A DNA stretch of 64,000 nt from Lutjanus erythropterus. Taxonomy: Eukaryota > Chordata > Actinopteri > Lutjaniformes > Lutjanidae. Below, in pieces: positions 4,201-49,349 of this stretch. Numbering within the stretch: position 1 is the first letter of the stretch; each line of letters opens with the position of its first letter. The DNA lies in contig CM034606.1 of NCBI GenBank assembly GCA_020091685.1, positions 37,780,728 to 37,844,727 on the forward strand. The letters run 5' to 3'. Under the pieces are notes generated by a model, which had not been told where the DNA came from, made no database searches, and worked only from the letters and a program-made list of their open reading frames with translations. The position numbers were made by a program, and so were the translations under genes.

Positions 4201-5569
4201 CTGGTGTTTTAAAGATTTGAGTTTGTTGGAGGTGGTGCACAGCGTGGGCGGAAGGAATGTGTCATGAGAACACCTCAGTGGAACAAAAGCAAAAATATTT
4301 ACCAGGAAGCTAGTCTGTTCAGGCCAAGATGTGTATTAAAATTATTTTGTGCGATATTGTTAGAATTAGACAAACACAAAGTATAAAGTAAATGTTCCTT
4401 TATTTTCCTCTTTGTTGCAGAAACGGGCATCATTCTGAATTTAGCCACTGACCTTGCCAGCGGAGAGTACACTGTGGTCCTGAGGGTTTCAGACAATCAG
4501 GGCCTAGAGCAGGACAGTACTGTCCAGGCCAAAGTGTGCAACTGCCGAGGGGCAGAGGTGCACTGCCAAGATGTTGTGAAAAGTGTAGCCGGACTCCCTA
4601 TGATCCTGGGAATACTTGGAGGCGTCCTGTTGCTGCTCAGTGAGTCTGAATTTTGATTCATAATTCCAGGGACAGTTTGTGAATACAAGCTTGGATGCTT
4701 TGCATCATAAATATGGTAAAGCCTCTAAGATATAGTAGGACCAAATTAAAGGTCTAACACATAACTAGGGTTATTCTGAAATTGATACCAGTATCAGAAA
4801 TGCCTTTGATATAGCCAAAAATACTGGATTGGGTTTCAGTTGATACACAAGTCTGTTCACCTATCTGATATCATGTAATTTATTAGCCTGAAACAGGACC
4901 CTGCTACTTCCCAGCAGCACCCAGTATGCAAAATGTTTTTTTTAACCATGATTAGCCAGGCCATGCAAGAATGATAGTAATCACATCACATCCATACAGG
5001 GTCAGTAGTGTTAGCTGTTAAAATTAGTATGCCTTATCAGCTGATACGAGATCAGGTATCAGAAGTCAGTATCACGATGGAAAACATGGGACTGGAACAA
5101 CTCTACGTGTGTGTGTGTGTGGGCGCGTGTGTGTGGGCACGCACGCGGGTGCATGCGTGTGTATGTGTGTGCATAAATGACTGGTCCTGCAGTGACCATG
5201 GTAAACTGTGGTTGGACATGTAGTGGGTATACTGAATTAAATTCTGCTCTGTATGTTCAGTGTTGTTGCTGCTGCTGCTGCTATTTGCGAGACGAAGAAG
5301 AGGAGAGAAGAAGGAACCTCTACTGCAGGATGATGACATCAGAGACAACATCTATTACTATGATGAAGAGGGAGGTGGAGAGGACGATCAGGTACCTGAA
5401 ATCAGAGGCTGGGACATCACTTTGAGATGAGGATAAAACATTGGCTACATTTCCTCAGTTTAGTATTTTGTAGCCCTGACGCATTATTATATTAGCATTT
5501 TTTCCTTGGAGCAAAAAGGAATGTTTGGAACATAAGAGAGGATGAATTACAGCACTAAATATATATACA

Positions 5570-5634
<65 letters not shown>

Positions 5635-6763
5635 GAGCGTGGACCCTCTCTCACGCGGTAAGGACTCCATTACCGCACGCTCTCTCTCCTTTTAAAAGTC
5701 GTTGTAGCTCACCCATTATTCTGATCGCTTCGTTTCTCTCTCTCCTTACAATCAATTTAAAGAGTAATCCAGCCAGATCAAATGAAAATGCATTAAAAGG
5801 AATAAAATGACAGTTTTCTTAATGAACTGATATACTGATCTACATGATTCATAGTGAAAACATAGATAAGGAGATATCCTGTGCCATTTGAAATAAATAT
5901 AAACTTAAAGTTTAAAGTGAGATTATCAGTTGGAAACAGTGTTAACTTTGTAATTAAAAGGCCCATCCGAAGTTACCGTGGCCCACCCAAAATTAAAATC
6001 CTGGCGCCGTGCCTGCCATCCATCCATCCATCCATTCATCCATCTTCATTAATCAATTCACTCACCAAGTTCGGTCTTGTACAGCCATGCGGAGTATCTA
6101 CAGTCTGACAGCCGTGTTGGATCAAACCCAGACTGACGGTGGTGACCCGTCTGCAGCTTTTTACTGCGTGCTTCGTTTGGAGGGCTGAACAGGTGTGTTT
6201 GGATCTAGTCATGGCGACATTAACAGGAGCAGGAGATTGACGAGCGCTGTGGTTGGGGCTGGAAGAGATGCTCTCATTTTGGCTAACACTGGCCGCAGAG
6301 CTACCTGTGCTTCCCGCCTCGCCACTTACGGTTTGTTTTAAAAAAAACGCTGATATTTTTGCGAACAGTTGGAGAACCTCCGGTCGTCCATTTACAATTT
6401 TTGTTTGTTTGTCGGTGGTTTTTTTTACGTAACGGTGGGAAACTGTCTCTCCTCCGCTCTCTGAGTGTGGGTGGGTGTGTCTGTACCAGTGCATCGGTGT
6501 GTGCTGTGAGAGAGGAGCGAGGGGGGGAGACCCGCCCGTCACAGAGGAGAGGAGAAATGCATTGTAATGAATTTCATGAAACGATAGCAACGCATCTGAC
6601 TCTGAAATCGCACAAATTAGAGTTGATAAAAAGAACACGTTATAGGCCGTTTTTAAAATATAAATTAAATAATGGAATTAAAAAAAATCTACAACTTGAA
6701 TTTCTGTGTGGGCATCCTGTTGGCCCTGCCAAATACACTATAGGGGAAACACTGTATATATAC

Positions 6764-6803
<40 letters not shown>

Positions 6804-9800
6804 TATTTTTACAAAGTCTTCACTACAGACATTACATGAGTCTGGACAGACATGGATGTAAATGGTAACCTGACTGGTTGGTGGGGGGATACAGCTGTGT
6901 AGCAGTAATCTGTTTTCCATGACCGCTGACAGCTGACTTGTCACTCTTGTCACTGGCTGCCAGGGGCTGCAAGCTTCAATTTGAAATTTTGTTTGTCAGG
7001 GACAGCATATGTCAGGGTCATGTTCATGTTGGACTTTGTAAATTTAAAGGGGATTGGGGATGGTTCTTCAACTACTTTTCTGCTAAGCGCGCTCATCTAG
7101 TTCTACATGTGATTTTTGCCCTCACTATATTTGCCATATCATGATATATATACCTGTCATTCAAATATTCTTATGGCAATACCAATTTCAGCTATCCAGC
7201 CCACCCCTACCACTGATTATATATCATAGTCCTAATGTTCTAAAGTAGGCCTATTGTCTGCATGAAAAGTATGAATTACAGTTTTGACAATGTGTAAATG
7301 AGCAGCAGGAGATAAAGAGGCAGAATACAGATGGAAATTAGTGTCTCACTAAATCTGGTGCCACCATGTTTTCATTTCATGTAAATGATCAACGTAATTG
7401 CACACTGTCCTTTTATAAATAAACTAAATACAGAATGTTCCTGATAAATTGTTGCTGGAAACCTAGATCACATGTATCATGGAAGTGCAGAAGATGCAGC
7501 ATGTTTTGTGTAACCCCATCATGTGTTCTCCATCAGGATTATGATCTGAGTGTTCTCCACCGTGGTCTGGACAACCGGCCCGAGGTGTTCAGGAACGATG
7601 TTGTGCCAAACTTCATGCCAGCTCCTCAGTACCGGCCTCGCCCAGCCAACCCAGAGGAAATTGGCAACTTCATCGATGATGTGAGTCAAAGAGTTACTCA
7701 TAGAAACTAAACTCAAACATGGGAAACCAGCTCATTCATTACTGCATTTATAAATTACTGGGTTTTTGGGGGAAACAAGTTTGAATTTGCATTTACAGTG
7801 GCCATGTATGTACTATGGCTGCCTTCAACTCTGATATTCCTTAGTCAAATCAGATTTGGTCATCCTATACAAGTACTCGAAGATTTGTCCTTTTTTGCAG
7901 TGCAGTGCACCACACTAAATTCTTATTTGAGCCTACATGAGTATGTTTTACCACATAGGTTTAGGTAAACTAAATGTGTGCGTTGTCCTATAGTTAAGTT
8001 ATAAAATCAGTGGACCTGTGGAGCCTCTTCCCTGAGGCTGCAGCCGCTGTCCAGCATCACCTGTGCCGAGCACTGAGCACTCCTTTACAGCATGAATTAT
8101 GAATTTATTTAGACCAAACCAGAGTTGGTGATTGTTGGGACAGTGACATTTTTAGTCAGTTTCATTTAGTTTCTGTGAAGTTTGAATGAAGCTGACAGTG
8201 TTTCAAAAGGATTCTGGTGCGTTTGATAGCAGTTGTTTCTGGTAGGGATGTCCCGATACAACTTTTTCACTTCCGATACGATACCGATATTGAAGCCTTG
8301 AGTATTGGCCGATACCGATATCGATCCGATACAATATCAGCACGAATCATACATACTTTTATTACTTATTTTGTAGTGTGGAATGTTAGAAAAGGCTTGA
8401 TCAAGTGATGTTACTCAAACAGAGAACAATAGTCAGCAACCAGAGTCACCTATGGATAGAAGTGCTGGAGCGGAAAATGGACTGCTTATCGGAGCACTTA
8501 TATCGGAGATTTTAGATGCAGTCCGATAAAATCCGATACTCGCTTTTTGGCTGATATCGGACCGATATCCGAAATCAATATCGGATCGGGACACCCCTAG
8601 TTTCTGGTTAAACAAAATGTATCTTACTCTTTAAAAAGAAGGTCTCTCATTGCTGTGATCCTTTCTATAATGTTGTCAGACACTAACAATAACAATCTGA
8701 GCCTGTTGGTGACAAAAACAAGCACAAATGACAAACAAGCATCACCTGCTCCTGCAGGTGCGCTCTGGATGAGGGTTGGACAGCGTGTCACAGTGTACTG
8801 CGGTTATATCGCACTTCTCTTCCATCACAGTTAGTTTTAGAATACAATCGAATAAGTTGTCTTCACCTCACCAAACAGTCTCTAAATCATCACAAAACTG
8901 CTGTGTTGTTTCCTCCAATTGTAAAGTTTACAGCCTGTCATGCTGTTACATTGCTCTTTGTACAATGACGCAGATAAAAAAAACAAGAGTTTCCCCTGTA
9001 CATTTTTGTAAGTGTCTTCATCCTGTAACTGTGATGCACACTGATAAAGGGAAAAAAACAAGTGCTCAACTGGGAGAATCTCAGTCAACTACAGTGGGGT
9101 GTACTACGAAGCGAGATTAATGGGCTAGCTAGATCACCATGGTAACTTATACTAAACTCATAGCCTGGTCGGGAGCAGGTTATGTTCAGTTTCAGATTAA
9201 ATCGTCTGTAAAAAGCGCTGTTCTTTAACTAATTATTGTCCTAACAAGGTTGTTTATGAGCGATATAGCTTTTAAACTGAGGAAAGACATTAAAAATGAA
9301 AAGTTGCTGAGCTGTATATTCGTAATATCACCGAACGAATCCATATAATGTAAAAATAAAACAGCGGCACAAACTGTCTGCATCACGCTGTCATGGTAAC
9401 CTCCGTTTGGTGATGCAGGGTCATTTTTCCCGTTTGCTCCAGATCATATTAACACTTTAAATTGACATGGTATATAATCCACACAGTAAAATAATGATGA
9501 AGCAACTACAGACACTTTGAATACTTTTTACTGTTATCTGTTTTGTCTTGGTGATATTGCAGATCACTGATTAGAAAATTCATCATCATTTATCACGGAC
9601 AATCTTAAATCAGTTACAGTCATTTTACGTTGGTTTGGTCAAAAACTTCAGTGATCTCCACGTCTCTGTCATCAAAGGACAGTGTCAAACAGACTTTGTG
9701 ATTTTGTAATCTGCTTTTATACATGTTGCATAATCCTCTCACTCATCTTTCCTGACTTGCTTGTGCAGTATGTGAACAGAAGTTCTATAAAATGAGAACA

Positions 9801-17877: not shown

Positions 17878-19010
17878 ATGGCTAAATATTTACCTGATTT
17901 GGAGAATGTAGATGAGACCTTTGATTTCAGTGGCTGCCAGTATTTTTTTGAGCCCGAGTATACGGATGAGGAGTTTGAGTTCCTACAAACAAAGAGCGGA
18001 TGAGGATAGAGAGAGAGGGGCAACGGGCAGACGAGGGTGAAGCAGCTGCTGCATGTCTGTGAATCTGTGAAGACTGGTTGTGCTCCTGTGAATGCTGTGA
18101 CTCTATGCCCACAGAGGAAGAATGTCTGTGTTGTAACGAGTGGGACCTGTTGCCCAGTATTTATGGTCTTGATGTGTCCAGGGATGATACAGAAATTACC
18201 CAACGCTGTGTAACCACTGTGGTGGGAAAATTATTCACCAAACTGGTCACTGTTGTTCCTCTTAGTTATTTCTCATGTTCTGGTTACTCGTCCTTCAACA
18301 CACAGTTGTCCTCTCTTTGGAAGAACAACTTCTGATAACACAATCACATCCCAACTCTCCCGATAAGCACTTCAGGTCCATCCTGACCCAACCTCCTTCA
18401 TCTCCTAACCCTGTAAAACAGATTTACATTCTTGACTCATTATCAGTTCCTTTTACACTTTGTGTGTGACTCTGTACTGATCCTTTGCAAAGCTCGATTA
18501 AAACACCACAAAGACAATCTTGGTCATGGGGTCTGTCTTAATTTTCAGATTTTCCACCACACCACCTTACAGGATTTCCGCCCTCTGACCAGCAGGGCAG
18601 TGCTGGATACCTTCTTTCATGTGCCCAAAATAAATTGGAGGAGGCAACCAAAACCACAGGGACCAAATGGTCAACTATCCATTGAGTAAGTGTAAATAAT
18701 ATGTCTTCATGCATGTAATATCTGTACCTAGAATTGTTTGACAGATGCGCCTTTTCTGTTGCATGCATTAGTTTGCCCTCAGACATTTCTAAATCATCTT
18801 AACCCTTTCCTTTCATCCAGCCAGTACAGACTTGCAGCCTATCATGTGGTGCTGGAGTGGGCTGTCAGAGGAGAACGTCTTGTTTGTAGTAACAGAAGAG
18901 TGCTGCCAAGCTGGATCATCACTGCTATCAGAAGCAAGTACCTGTCCCCCACTGGCACTTACAGCAGGTTCAAGGAGGCACATGTTCAGAACACATCTAC
19001 CGATGAATGA
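17878..19010 (+). pseudogene. P2X7 C-terminal (ballast) domain protein, pseudogene
   Basis: Three exon-like blocks. The first (from ATG 17878) reads YFFEPEYTDEEFEFLQ, hits stops near 18000, and resumes in another frame with CSCECCDSMPTEEECLCCNE, the Cys-rich motif of the zinc-binding ballast domain of P2X7. Block two (18549-18685) reads DFRPLTSRAVLDTFFHVPK and ends at a GT donor. Block three (18821-19010) joins in phase after TTTCATCCAG and reads QYRLAAYHVVLEWAVRGERL, then RRVLPSWIITAIRSKYLSPT. There is no channel domain (two membrane helices plus cysteine-rich loop). Fish genomes hold many such stand-alone copies annotated as P2X7-like. Stops and a frame change argue for a pseudogene; a mis-sequenced live gene is less likely. 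Confidence 0.72.
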
Positions 19011-42251: not shown

Positions 42252-42358
42252 GTCTTACGGAATTGTCAACATGACATGTTTTCCCCTTTTTACAGTGTCT
42301 TGTACACTGGAGCCTTTTTGTTTTTTCCCCAGTTACTAAAAAGGTAACATTTATTTAA

Positions 42359-42376
42359 AGGAGAAGTGTGTGATTT
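42359..42376 (+). repeat. Left terminal inverted repeat of the Kolobok-like element
   Basis: AGGAGAAGTGTGTGATTT pairs with the right end at 49164-49183. It is preceded by the TTAA target duplication at 42355-42358. Confidence 0.85.
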
Positions 42377-42736
42377 CCAGCGGCATCTAACGTTCAAACC
42401 GTATATTGCAACTAAGAGGATTTATCCCGACACCGCCCCTCTCTCTCCAAGAGTACGGTGGCCGTCAGCGGACAAAATGGCTTCCTCAACACCCACACTA
42501 GTTTTTCAAGTGATGAGGTTTGTTTATATAGTAATTTTATAAAATGTATTTCAATAGTCTCTGTAGTATATACCTTCATATAAGATATCGAATATACCTG
42601 ATTATGCTCCACATCGTGGTCGTGTTTTAGCGAGCTGCTTAGCGCAGGATATAAGCCGACATTACAAATAATTGTAGTTATTAAGTATGATAGCGATATA
42701 GTGTTGGCTGGGTGTATATTTATTCCTCTTACAGAA

Positions 42737-43806
42737 TCAGAGTCTTGATCGGGAATGGGGTGCGAGGAAGAGGAAGAGGAAGAGGGAGAGGGAGAGGAAC
42801 AGGGTGAGGAAAGAGTAAGAGGCCGAGGTCTGCAGCCAGGCTAGACGAGGGAGAGGAGCAGGCGACTGGAGCAGAAGCTTCGCTGGAGCAGGAGGAAAGA
42901 TTTGAAACTCTCCAAAGGAGCCGTAGAAGTAACAGAGGTATGTATCCAGAAAATAATTTTGTTGTATACCTACGTGGTCTGTGTGATATTAATAATCCTA
43001 ATTCGACAAAACGTTTTATTTACAGCTCTGAGCTCTACATGTATCAAAGTTACTGTTGTCTGTAGTTTGATGAGTAATCTCAGAGTAACATGAGTCATCA
43101 TTACCTGTGAAACGTCAGGGACGTTACTGAATGAGCATAAATACAGAGGAACAGCATCATGCAGCACGTTATTGTTTTAGACATGTTGGTGAAACTCTGA
43201 GCAGCCTGTACACCATAAACTGCAGTGATATTAGTGTATTACTAACATAATATCAGACATCTCATTAACATTATGTGTATTTTTCTTGTTCTTCCTCATT
43301 TTTCAGAGACTTATTGGGGAAATGACTCTTGAGGAGCACAGGCAGCTCACCACGCAGCTCCTGGAGAGGCAGCCAGGACTACTTTTGATGCCCTGATGAT
43401 GCATCAGCTCTGGCATGGTGCCCCACCTTTACTGGAGTGCCAGGGGTACCATGGTGTGTACTGGTAACTGTAGGGACATGCCTATGGACCGGGAAAGGAT
43501 ATGCTGTGGCCAGGAACCAGTGAACTGTGTAAGCCGACTACCTTCTTCTCCCAGTACTGCCTAGAAGGCTTCTTACGTATTCACAGGCAGTACCGGGAAG
43601 AACTGACAGTATTAGGCCAAGTTAGGGGGCCTGGGGATGACAACCGGGAGTACCGTTATGCAGCTTATAGGCATTTTATTTTTTGGCAACATGGCTCTTT
43701 AGGGCAGGGAAACCGTCTTGTCATCCCCAGCTGCTGCGTTTGGAGCATCAGGGACAAGTTCCCTGACCCTACTGGACATTACACAGGATTCATACCTGGC
43801 ATCTGA
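42737..43806 (+). pseudogene. P2X7-ballast-domain protein carried by the transposon, broken
   Basis: Exon one (about 42737-42937) encodes a run of RGRGRGRG followed by EEQATGAEASLEQEERFETL, with donor GT at 42938. Exon two starts at 43307 after TTTTTCAG with RLIGEMTLEEHRQLTTQLLE, meets a stop near 43397, and resumes with CTGNCRDMPMDRERICCGQE and VNCVSRLP. It then changes frame to YCLEGFLRIHRQYREELTVL, DDNREYRYAAYRHFIFWQHG and NRLVIPSCCVWSIRDKFPDP, ending YTGFIPGI. The C-x-x-x-C, ICCGQ and LVIPSCCVW blocks are those of the zinc-binding P2X7 C-terminal domain; there is no channel part. One stop and at least one frameshift indicate loss of function in this copy. Confidence 0.75.
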
Positions 43807-44678
43807 ATGTTCTTCCAGGCCCTCTGGAGTGTCAATACAGGACCACAAGTATTCACTAACCTGTGTGAACATCATCAGGGCATCAAAACAACAGTTTTAT
43901 TTGTTCTATTTTTATACTTTATTTATTAATATTGTTTGTAATTATTAGATATCAAAGAATGTTCTAAATATTTTTTTCTGATACTATTACTTTATTCAGT
44001 CCATGACTTTGCATTTCATTATTTATTATTCTGTTATGTTTTTTGATAGCAACTGCTAATAAAATATGATAATTAAATATACCTGTTGTATTTATTGTAA
44101 GTATACACATATGAACATGGACTTACAGAAAAAGTAGTTTCCTGTACTGTTGGTAAATTTTAATTTCTAGTTCAAGCTACACTAATGTATATTATCATTA
44201 AAGGGGTCAGCTGTGTCTTTACAATTTTAACCAAAAGATGAATCTACAAAGACAACACTTATGTTGACAGATCTAATATAAATACTTTGAAATTTACAAA
44301 TAAACAGTTTTGGCCATCTCTTTCAATCTTGAAAATACAAGGAGAAATGTTGGTGTGCAATCATAAAACTTGCAGCTTGTAGTGTACAAACAGACAAAAC
44401 ATTTCAACAGCTTATTCTGTCTTCATCAGAATTATCTTTGACAAAGACAGAAGAAGCTATAAGAACACTTTTCTGTTTGAACTGAATGCTAAAAGCTCTT
44501 AGTTTATCATTCTGTGGTTCTATAGAAATATCTATAGAAAATAGCTGATCATCAGATATACATGATTTATTTATTGCAGTGATGCAGATATATAAATACA
44601 CTTGTACAACAAACAGAACTTTACTTCCAACTTTATTTTTTCTGTTTAATGAAGCAGGGTGAACTTCTGTCTGAATCA

Positions 44679-45845
44679 TTATGAATCAGCAGCTGGACTG
44701 AAAGCCGGTCCTGTTGGAGACAGTGTCATGATACATGTAGTTAGTATAATATTTTATTGAACTGATACAGTGTGGTCAAAATCATATTATTTCACTAAGA
44801 GTATGACTTAGAGGACAGGCTAATATGCCACAATAAAGGCAAATTAATGTGTGTCACTTACCCAGACCTCTCTTGACTTGCGTCCGCACCAGTTCTGATG
44901 TGGCAGGTGCAGGTATGGGGGGCACCAAGCCGAGCATTCTGGGGTCATCTGGTCGAAGGCTCCTCCTTCGAGGCATCCCCGCTCCACTCATCAGTCTCCT
45001 TTTAACAATTCGTCCTTGCAGCTCAGAGATGTATCCGTAGGTTTTTTCACATTTCAGGGCATATACACTGTATCTTCTGGCGTTTTTCTTGTACAGCCTT
45101 CTGAAACTTTAGTAACACATATTTAAACTCCTAAGTATCAGTTATTCATTTTTTACAAACAAAGAAAATAAATAAGCTCTTGTATACAAAACATAAATTA
45201 TAAAACAAATTGTCAGTATGTGCTGTAGTCAGTGGGAGTATTTCAATTATTAAACTTACATCTCTTTTCCTTCTGCCGTTTTCATTGTTGGTCGGTTCCG
45301 GTGGAAGTTGTAGTCAAGAGCAGCCAGCAGAACTCTTGCCTCATAAACCGGGGGACTGAAAGCGTAGCGTTTGCTGGCATACATCAGAATGTGATTCTGG
45401 AATGCCTCCAGGTCAGCAGTTGATCTGATTGAACAATAAATGTAAACTTAAGTCTTTTCAAAAATAATCATTGTATAGTATAGTATAAACAGTGTGCATC
45501 TGTGTGAAACATTTAGCTGCACTTTACCTGAAGCGCAGATATTTATGAACATCCCTCTGCCAACGCTTATTGAGAACAATGTCCTGTAAAGCTTTGTGGC
45601 ACTTGGAGTCTCTCTGGATCCACTCCTTTCCATGCAGTTCTTCCAGGTGTTCATGTTGGCATCTTCCCGTTTTCCAGGTGTGAATGTTACAGACATGGTG
45701 GGTGATGCCAATCCATAGTGTCTGTGTAAAAAGTGGAAAAGCTCTCTGAAATGTAGCATTAATTTACAAAAACAAACAATATATATTGTTTGTTTTATTT
45801 ATTTATTTATTCATACATTTTCTCTCTCTCTCTCTCTCTCTTTCA

Positions 45846-45899
<54 letters not shown>

Positions 45900-48850
45900 A
45901 CTTACAAGAAACTGCTCGGTTGTATCAGCCGTCTTACAACACCACCAAAATGGTTAACAATATCTTTCAGCCAGATGAGGAGAGTTGATTGCCCTTTTAC
46001 CTTTGCTGCCTTTAGGAGAGAAACATAGACATAGACATACATAGGAATTAATGTCATACATAGGTATTCAACCATATTCCATGGAGGGGTAAGAGCATAC
46101 AGATTTTAATGTCAAAGACTACACCTGATGATTGATTAGCAACCTTCATCCAGAGATGCCTATAAATTCATCACTTTATGATGAATGTATAGGCATAATA
46201 TGAGCCAGTTCTTAATATGAGCCACTTACAGCAGCAATTTTTTTAGCCAGGTTCTTGGCACCATGCCACATGTCCAGACTGTGATGAATTCCAAGCACCT
46301 TGTATTTGCCTTTGTCTGGGTCTGTATAGTAGGGAAACATGCAATATTACTACAATATTACAGTCACATTTTCAACACATGAATTCATACATTATATCAG
46401 ATGAAGACTTACTCATAAGAGCTCCAATTTGGGCATGAGCATCAGTGCAGATCTCTACAAGCTTTATCTCTGATGTCAGCTTGTCCACAGTCTGGATAAA
46501 ACCCTCCCTCTCCATGACGACAGAGTTCCAGGATGTCTGCCGCTTGTCTACAGTGGCAACATGAATGATCTCCTTGGTATCATTCTTCAAAAAGTAACAA
46601 ATATAGAAGCAAAAAATCAATAAAAGTATTAGCTGCTTACTATCACACTGTCATTGCCCATTGTCTTAAATACTTATTTAGCATGGTATAGCATAAGCTA
46701 CACACTTAGGATGACAACATCTTTTCCTTGAAGGCGCCTGAGGGCCTCACTCCTCCTCTCATCCCAGAAGTCCTTTATTGTGTCAACACAGTAACAGTCC
46801 TGAATGGAGAAGAAGGTATTCTTGTTCACCATCCCCATGTTCATAAATTTGAACAAGAGGGCAACCTTTGCGTAATTGTTGCCAGACAATAAAATGTTGG
46901 TGGACAAGAGAAAATCTCCTGCTTGTATCCCAAACTTCATTACAGGCTGGGACTTCCATCTCCACAAGCTGTGTCCATTGGGACAGACCTAAAAGTCAAA
47001 GAACAGTGAAAAAAACAAACATGCATTTGGCATGTGCAGCATTGGTCTCCACAACAAAATTGTCATTGCTAGACAATCATAAAGTTATGATACACCATGA
47101 CTGTCATGACTTACCCATTCAACACTTGCTGCTGTTCCCTTGGTAGTGATGTTTACCTCGAAGGGGGCACTGCTGTTGCACAACATACCAGTCTGCAAAA
47201 CACCTGTACATTTATCCACTGGCAGGATCAGAAATGTGGCCAGTTGTTTCAGGCAGTCTTCATAGACTATTGCAGCTCTGGCACCTATGATGTCATCCTC
47301 ACACAGGACATGCAGTGGTTCTGAGAAAGCAGGTGCCTGATCACAGGGAGGCTCATCAGGAGGGTCTTCATGTGCAGGCTGGTCATGTATGGTCTCATCA
47401 ATTCCAATAACTGGAAGTCCATCGATAGATGCTCCTTTCAGTGTGCCACCCATCCTATTGAGGCACAATATGAAGGCATGTCTGCTATGAATATTAAACA
47501 AACAAAAAACTATCATACCACACAGCAATAGCAGAATAAGGAATGACTGATAACATACCGTATACAAATTGGTGGAAAATACTCTTCATCTGAGCTGTCA
47601 TCATTCTTGCCATCACCTTCATCTGCCCAATCAATTCTGTAAAGGACATATTTTAAAAAAAATCTTCTAAAAAGAGATCACAAAATGTTTAGAATTATCA
47701 TTAGGAAGCATTACTTACACGCTATTCAAGGGATCATTGAAAATATTTTCCTCAATGTCCTCCTCCTCAACAATACTCATGTCATGTAAGCTGTAAAAAA
47801 TGAAGAATACACAAATTATGAGTATATTAAAAAGATAAAATAGCTCAAAGATGGTATGGCAAGTTAACTGTTAGCTTTGCTCAAGGCTCTGAATTTCTGT
47901 GGCTTCTGCACTGACATCCAAATGCTCCTGTCTGTAAAGAATAATCACAGCATGTTTCATATGCACAGTAACACACTTATAAAGAAAACTGATTAATCTG
48001 CTACTTTATTAGGTTTTCAAATATGTTGGGACCACAATAGTTTCATAGTGAAGACTTGCCTGTCTGTCCCACTAGAAGCACCAATTGCAGACAACGCTGG
48101 AGCTGTGATATGAAAAGGTTTTCCCTTCATAGGAGTAGATGTTGAAGGACTACTCTCATAGCTGTAAAACATCAAGAATTGAAGTGTTAGGTTACAGAGA
48201 GACACACAGCTGTAATGCCTACTGTTACATCATACAGTGCTGAGAGGAATGGCTAGCCTACACATACAACATTAAATTATACCTATATATCATAAACCAC
48301 CAGTCAACTGCAAGCGTAGCAGATAAATACAGCTACATGTCCGCTCACTAACATGCGGCTGTATTGATATGTGACATAAACAACTGATACACTTTTATAG
48401 GCGATAATTATCTGAAACTGTGGCTTTATCTTGGTAATTCCACCTGATATCTTGACCATATGTTTGGTGAATACTTGTAAACTTACAGTCATGGTAATAA
48501 ATACATATTATCGGCAGAAACACGGGGGGTTACTTGTGTGAGTAACCAGAGTTATGCCCGTGGCTATGTTATATCGCTAGCAAAAGCTATCTCACAACAA
48601 ACTACAATTATGTGTGTAGGATGAATTACCTGTCCAGCAGAAAACAGGAAACCTCGGCGTCACTGTGAAAACGCTTGTCCTCCATCAGCGATTTCCATCG
48701 TGTAAACGCTATGCCGATGTTGATTCGTGTTTTTTGCCGTTTCCTGTCACGCTTGCGTTTACTTTCTTCGCGTCTCCGCTTCTTGGATGACGGGGATTCG
48801 TTCAGGAACAGTGTATGTATGATCCATTTTTCAAAAACTGTGCCAGTCAA
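44679..48850 (-). CDS. Kolobok-like transposase, about 15 exons, probably defective
   Basis: Exons (- strand): 48850-48630, 48161 to about 48061, about 47930-47880, about 47786-47722, about 47637-47566, 47454-47115, 46988-46706, 46584-46413, 46321-46230, 46009-45906, 45721-45528, 45424-45260, 45100-44862, 44710-44679. One or two borders in the 47.5-48.1 kb part are uncertain. Landmarks: NIGIAFTRWKSLMEDKRFHS and SDAEVSCFLLDSYE; acidic SDEEYFPP; DCLKQLATFL, CTGVLQTG, FEVNITTKGTAASVEW; VCPNGHSLWRWKSQP (zinc-finger-like); STNILLSGNNYAKVALLF; VATVDKRQTSWNSVVMEREG and LVEICTDAHAQIGALM (putative second Asp region); HHSLDMWHGAKNLAKKI; THHVCNIHTWKTGRCQHEH; ALQDIVLNKRWQRDVHKY; SKRYAFSPPVYEARVLLAAL; a basic tail to stop 44679. 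Relatives have a GDGR-DSPG block before the VATVDKR exon. It is absent here and the 46706/46584 junction is out of phase, so the catalytic site is likely lost. Junction 45906/45721 also reads out of phase. Confidence 0.72.
45820..45896. repeat. (TC)n(AC)n microsatellite
   Basis: About 11 TC units followed by about 25 AC units, inside a transposase intron of the Kolobok-like element. Confidence 0.97.
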
Positions 48851-49163
48851 GGTTCACAACTCTAAATCGTCTGCCAGCAATCACCCGCGTCTATCCTCCC
48901 CCTCTACTTCCGTGTTTACGCTGCGGCGTCTACGTAAGGTCGCCATGGGCTTCCCAAGACTCACTGTTAGTGCAGTTTGTCCGCTCTGCGCTGCCGTAGA
49001 CGGCGCAAGATGGTGAAATCCGTAAGGCGACCCGGCAGTATGTAAATATAAATGGCTATTTCTAAAGTAAAAGGAACATATAGATTATGAGTTTACGTTG
49101 ATTGATAATAATAAATAACATACTTATATATAATATATCTCATTTATGTACATATATTCCTGT

Positions 49164-49183
49164 AATTATTACACACTGGTCCT
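49164..49183 (-). repeat. Right terminal inverted repeat of the Kolobok-like element
   Basis: Read on the - strand it is AGGACCAGTGTGTAATAATT, matching the left end at about 13 of the first 16 positions. TTAA follows at 49184-49187. Confidence 0.85.
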
Positions 49184-49349
49184 TTAAAAAAACTTTAATA
49201 AGAATATTATAATGAGAAGATGGATTTGAAATGTCAAAGCTGTGACTGTGATGATATCAACATTGTTTTATTAAAATATCAAAAAATGTCAAACTTACCA
49301 GACCATGTCTCCCACTGTTGCACCCACCAAAAGCAGGAAACACCAATGG

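Follow-up and report, generated by a model that had tools for sequence, protein, structure and literature searches.

Why should a gene resembling the tail of an ion channel lie beside a transposase? The question is raised by positions 42359-49183 of the window, by which we mean the whole 64,000-nucleotide stretch of the Lutjanus erythropterus genome analysed here (assembly GCA_020091685.1, contig CM034606.1). This 6.8-kb block holds a Kolobok-type transposase gene and a gene for a protein with the C-terminal "ballast" domain of P2X7. P2X7 itself is an ATP-gated channel that acts in inflammation, and its tail binds zinc and a guanine nucleotide. That the block is a transposon is near certain, and a fuller reading appears highly probable: a decayed Kolobok element of the Kol0 type, whose ancestors carried two convergent genes, one of them KolX, and from whose kind the P2X7 tail was captured. 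The central idea is already known. According to passages of Kojima & Bao (2022, PMC9587614), Kolobok elements of the Kol0 lineage encode a second protein, KolX, which has the ballast fold; P2X7 came about when a P2X4-like gene fused with KolX; and zebrafish nanor is a likely domesticated KolX. In our literature search P2X7, the ballast domain and transposons came together in that paper only, and among the matches listed for KolX or Kolobok no other named KolX. Our additions are modest: a match in gene structure, a convergent layout seen repeatedly and a recently spread ballast family with no detectable transposase.

Boundaries and genes of the element

The exact limits of the element are 42359 and 49183, and it lies between a left TTAA target-site duplication at 42355-42358, read from the sequence, and a right one at 49184-49187, read from the sequence and from genome matches. 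Its terminal inverted repeats, AGGAGAAGTGTGTGA on the plus strand (42359-42373) and TTACACACTGGTCCT on the minus strand (49169-49183), are 15 bp long and imperfect, and the outermost bases read AG...CT, that is, 5'-RR...YY-3'. RR/YY termini are the Kolobok signature given in passages of PMC9587614, which also name a C/DxxH motif in the transposase. A search of the 10 kb around the element with a mismatch limit of 4 returned a single TTAA-flanked RR/YY pair that encloses the two genes, its members differing at 3 of 14 bases, against a mean of 0.01 equally good pairs in shuffled sequence (100 shuffles).

Both ends recur elsewhere in this genome of 938 Mb. The left end gave 463 first-look candidates and the right end 513, and 40 of each were scored. 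Right-end matches stopped at query positions 288-289, at the TTAA or one base past it, in 29 of the 40, although the query ran 13 bases on. Left-end matches reached the element end in 39 of 40 (the window included), but cannot show such a stop, because that query started just five bases outside the TTAA. Six short copies (L003-L008, 458-747 bp) were read, and all six carry both ends and the 4-bp TTAA on either side; L003 and L004 agree to 99% over 3.1 kb, so that they are probably one place assembled twice, which leaves five places. The earlier note's claim of a 6.8-kb element with matching ends and TTAA duplications thus holds to the base. The note also took copies with the same ends but no P2X7-like gene as a sign against its idea; the short copies are literally of this kind, yet they have no room for the transposase either and are non-autonomous remnants. 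The T2-MITE/XKol elements of Xenopus (PMC6004289) are similar in their TTAA, their AGGRR ends and their many short non-autonomous copies, and the left end that this paper lists for XKol A2 starts with AGGAGAAG..; the main text of that paper, by contrast, contains no word starting with P2X.

The P2X7-like gene, KolX, lies on the plus strand, with an RG-rich upstream exon (42741-42937, start approximate; donor GTATGT at 42938) and a terminal exon that encodes the ballast domain (43307-43806). Here and below, splice sites and exon limits were read from splice-site-like sequence and not from transcripts. Positions 43474-43803 match Pfam P2RX7_C with E=1e-15, and the gene matches P2X7 chains in PDB at 1.5e-9. 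Both matches were obtained with KolX sequences alone as queries; a profile search with the receptor in its alignment is partly circular, and the independent tests are those with KolX-only queries. Viral contigs scanned with the KolX/ballast alignment gave no relative. Compared with a sister copy on C4, the terminal exon is 95.4% identical over 500 bases and has four frame-changing 1-base gaps and one gap of three. The ballast cysteines were read in the C4 copy, where this exon is open throughout (168 residues), the window exon being frameshifted. The C4 copy has itself lost its transposase core and its left end, and the third copy of the family, on C1, keeps a partial KolX and a transposase remnant, so that none of the three has both genes intact.

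The transposase gene occupies 44857-48853 on the minus strand, tail to tail with KolX, in open blocks at about 44857-45108, 45259-45447, 45527-45763, 46220-46330, 46375-46596, 46701-46988, 47088-47585 and 48629-48853. Block 45527-45763 contains a CxxH motif. We take the second catalytic D to lie possibly in 46375-46596, the third in 46220-46330 and the last E in 45259-45447. The motifs follow in the order TDAH, LDMWH, CNIH and a glutamate, compatible with the DDD/E transposase bearing C/DxxH that is named in passages of PMC9587614. CNIH and the later acidic motifs are present in the window. The segment with the first acidic motif is lost there and present in a relative, L045, which carries GRNDSPGLCAKYCSYAAME (the GRNDSPG..CAKYCSYAAME stretch) directly before a shared TKEII segment; no counterpart is seen in the window. 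Scanned against Pfam and NCBIfam, the exons gave nothing over the curated cut-offs and weak unrelated matches only, so the transposase call rests on the ends, the motif order and the partner gene. Genome searches with two of the exons gave 12 and 8 matches, the best after the window itself at 72% and 86% amino-acid identity; six of the 12 were examined and, for the second exon, the places other than one on C23, one on C24 and two on C17.

As passages of PMC9587614 describe them, Kol0-lineage Kolobok elements with KolX (Kolobok-1_XT type) share with the window element the TTAA duplication, the RR/YY ends and the KolX ballast gene, and probably the DDD/E-type transposase with CxxH.

Both genes elsewhere in the genome

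The genome holds 69 ballast matches, of which 62 are over the cut-off; the loci read are a part of these 69, limited to matches with a fetched locus. Wherever parts of both genes were found (the window, L040, L041, L046, L047, L063 and L064), they are convergent, in seven loci of seven. The window and L040, and likewise L063 and L064, are pairs within one family each, so the seven represent about five families. The transposase is represented by a single short piece in each of L040 and L041. Passages of PMC9587614 contain no statement of a convergent layout for Kol0. KolX remnants also lie near the left end and TTAA in six of ten loci of a related subfamily, one of them with one mismatch (flanks of 1.5 kb). 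Three transposase relatives (L043, L044 and L045; one on C21, two on C20) show 74-88% DNA identity in the aligned pieces. Near the two C20 relatives lie 8 and 9 C2H2 zinc-finger motifs, and the C21 stretch that contains the transposase has none; the three relatives may be old copies or domesticated ones. L043, where most transposase exons find a match in an open frame, could represent a domesticated gene.

A second TTAA family, here called family B, likewise carries a ballast gene. A 3.88-kb element that ends in AGAGCAGATTGCAGGTTA and TAACCTGCAATATGCTCT is present at both L060 and L061 (99.6% identity), each copy bounded by TTAA; the end pair was tested in L060, where the element spans 4815-8694, and 15 further places are known. 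The left end was found at 16 places and reached full score over 250 bases at nine of them, and the right end gave 17 matches, one of just 42 bases; in ten cases a left and a right end are separated by about 3.87-3.88 kb. Over 3.1 kb, six of seven loci are 99.37-99.68% identical to the seventh. Of the 16 places, 15 have a ballast exon 1.4-1.7 kb in from the left end, some of them perhaps duplicated by the assembly where they lie on small contigs; in the exception, L062, where none was seen, a reverse-transcriptase frame lies inside (RVT_1, 3.6e-35). The two joined exons of the ballast protein match P2RX7_C at 2.1e-15 (0.034 for the cysteine exon alone, about 1e-5 for the C-terminal exons alone), and the ballast exons are open in both copies read whole, L060 and L061. 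On the opposite strand of L060 an unchanged frame gives a THAP match (1.2e-7); the THAP gene seemingly changes frame there, and neither the second L060 frame nor the THAP frames of L063 matched when scanned alone. The window transposase exons had no match in L060 or L061 at E 0.1, and the longer, more diverged copies L063 and L064 retain a transposase exon (E=9e-8 and 2.4e-8). The 3.9-kb form has the look of a derivative without a transposase, which spread recently and retained its ballast gene, either for a reason or by hitch-hiking.

KolX and the tail of the P2X7 receptor

The receptor gene of the same genome has its ballast exon on C9; upstream of it, in the same orientation, are six P2X channel matches. 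In this receptor and in the KolX copies on C4 and C5, a single terminal exon after a phase-0 junction encodes the entire ballast domain, with the first WC of the exon at residues 42 (receptor), 50 (C4) and 48 (C5). Family B differs in that the domain is interrupted just before QYRYTAYR, and other loci have only its C-terminal half in one frame. An unsplit layout in two diverged KolX families and in the receptor agrees with capture of a whole exon, but the three matching junctions are mild evidence only, because phase 0 is common. On exon phase the passages of PMC9587614 and PMC7016195 hold no evidence; the legend of Figure 3 in PMC7016195 states that exon limits are marked in the figure.

The proteins agree in their cysteines as well. 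KolX and the receptor tail (PF20478; PDB 6u9v) share the series CxCxxC, CC, C and PSCC, and C45, C47, C50, C61, C62, C69 and C131 (C5 KolX numbering) are invariant among two class-A KolX, the receptor and one class-B KolX. They differ upstream, where the receptor has ion-channel exons and KolX an RG-rich N-terminus, and at the RH pair that contacts the nucleotide in the receptor, which is RY in the window and family B, while C4 and C5 have neither residue. Between the C5 and C4 KolX the nonsynonymous divergence (dN) is 0.52 and the synonymous divergence (dS) saturated, and the KolX protein has therefore been under long constraint. Identity is 31% between C4 and the receptor (113 columns), 35% between C5 and the receptor and 48% between C4 and C5. 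In an unrooted tree of short sequences, drawn from one genome plus one PDB segment, the two P2X7 sequences split from the other ten, transposon and unplaced copies, with an ultrafast bootstrap (UFboot) of 97, the other nodes being weaker. As far as these sequences tell, the transposon KolX copies did not branch off the receptor recently.

Several observations weigh against our reading of a Kol0-type element and a captured tail. With its four frame-changing gaps the window KolX looks like a pseudogene, and the window transposase is probably dead, since the segment with the first acidic motif is absent. The THAP domain, usual but not universal in Kolobok, was found in none of the window transposase exons scanned; by the apparent death of both genes the window copy differs from the Kol0 elements described. 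No convincing end pair was found at L041, L046 and L047 (C5, C19 and C1), which have both genes, nor around the C21 and C20 transposase relatives, where tblastn of the downstream sequence (about 6.8, 7.7 and 2.6 kb) found no KolX. The C4 and C1 KolX differ by 4 synonymous and 11 nonsynonymous changes, too few to prove selection. Finally, the tree does not prove the direction of transfer, which rests on published taxon sampling. What the earlier note proposed survives with these reservations. Its convergent pair of transposase and P2X7-domain genes is there, although both genes look dead. On its question whether the two travel together, they are convergent at every locus with parts of both, and neither KolX nor element ends were found for the three relatives. 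The tree that it asked for sets P2X7 apart from the transposon and unplaced copies. The possible capture of the receptor tail from a transposon, like the domain as a transposon accessory gene, agrees with our evidence and with passages of PMC9587614, which state it for the Kol0 lineage.

The opposite direction, in which the transposon took up the receptor-tail exon from a host P2X7 gene and KolX is a passenger, would account for the homologous domain and for a terminal exon laid out as in the receptor, and an unrooted tree of one genome could be read either way. We nevertheless regard it as improbable. KolX is 28-35% identical to the receptor, compared with 26-49% between KolX classes, and being as far from the receptor as its classes are from each other, it cannot derive from it recently; several KolX families moreover have a different intron layout. 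Passages of Rump et al. (2020, PMC7016195) describe ballast domains as widespread in animals, with ballast proteins that have no P2X part in sponges, cnidarians and molluscs, and propose capture by a P2X4-like gene; the main text has no word starting with "transpos". The same paper treats zebrafish nanor, which resembles KolX in being a ballast-only protein and differs in being a host gene.

Could the element be a relative of piggyBac instead? TTAA duplications are made by piggyBac likewise. According to passages of PMC9587614, a few piggyBac families even bear a KolX-like C-terminal part, but the 5'-AG...CT-3' (RR/YY) termini are a Kolobok signature there. With a CxxH motif present and the KolX cysteines kept in the sister copy, we give this assignment very little credence. 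Least probable of all, the transposon might have inserted into or beside a host gene or pseudogene with which it has nothing to do. The broken window gene and the chance inherent in a single copy might favour this idea, but it is already contradicted by other copies, namely the related KolX remnants near the same left end and TTAA (six of ten loci) and the ballast exon that the second TTAA family has of its own in 15 of 16 places.

A possible role for KolX

Returning to the Kol0-type reading, intact ancestors of the window element would have carried two convergent genes, for a DDD/E transposase and for KolX, a relative of the P2X7 tail and a small zinc-cysteine protein. KolX would be an accessory protein made by the element for its own movement, and such a role in transposition seems to us rather likely from the sequences at hand. 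It would probably act as a zinc-stabilised adaptor, its RG-rich N-terminus touching nucleic acid and its ballast domain binding the transposase or a host partner. The vertebrate P2X7 tail would be a captured KolX, acquired most simply when a P2X4-like gene came to splice into the KolX terminal exon, as is already in print.

More tentatively, this gain may have taken one step, by splicing into a KolX acceptor, with the unsplit phase-0 class (the window family and C5) as the type of donor and not the intron-split class; in parallel, the recently spread TTAA elements that keep the ballast gene with no detectable transposase would hint that KolX aids movement. If the P2X7 tail is indeed a domesticated transposon protein, which the gene structure mildly supports, its original job is to be sought in transposition. 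The 3.9-kb family, with near-identical copies and open ballast exons in L060 and L061, offers a natural system for studying KolX function.

The window also contains a second, weaker ballast-like remnant at 18060-19010 on the plus strand, with a cysteine stretch WLCSCECCDSMPTEEECLCC and the C-terminal half further along; the joined pieces match P2RX7_C at E=0.0012, below the curated cut-off, and the C-terminal exon alone scores 18.3 bits. More diverged exons for the C-terminal half of the ballast domain are seen at L014, L015, L017, L026 and L027.

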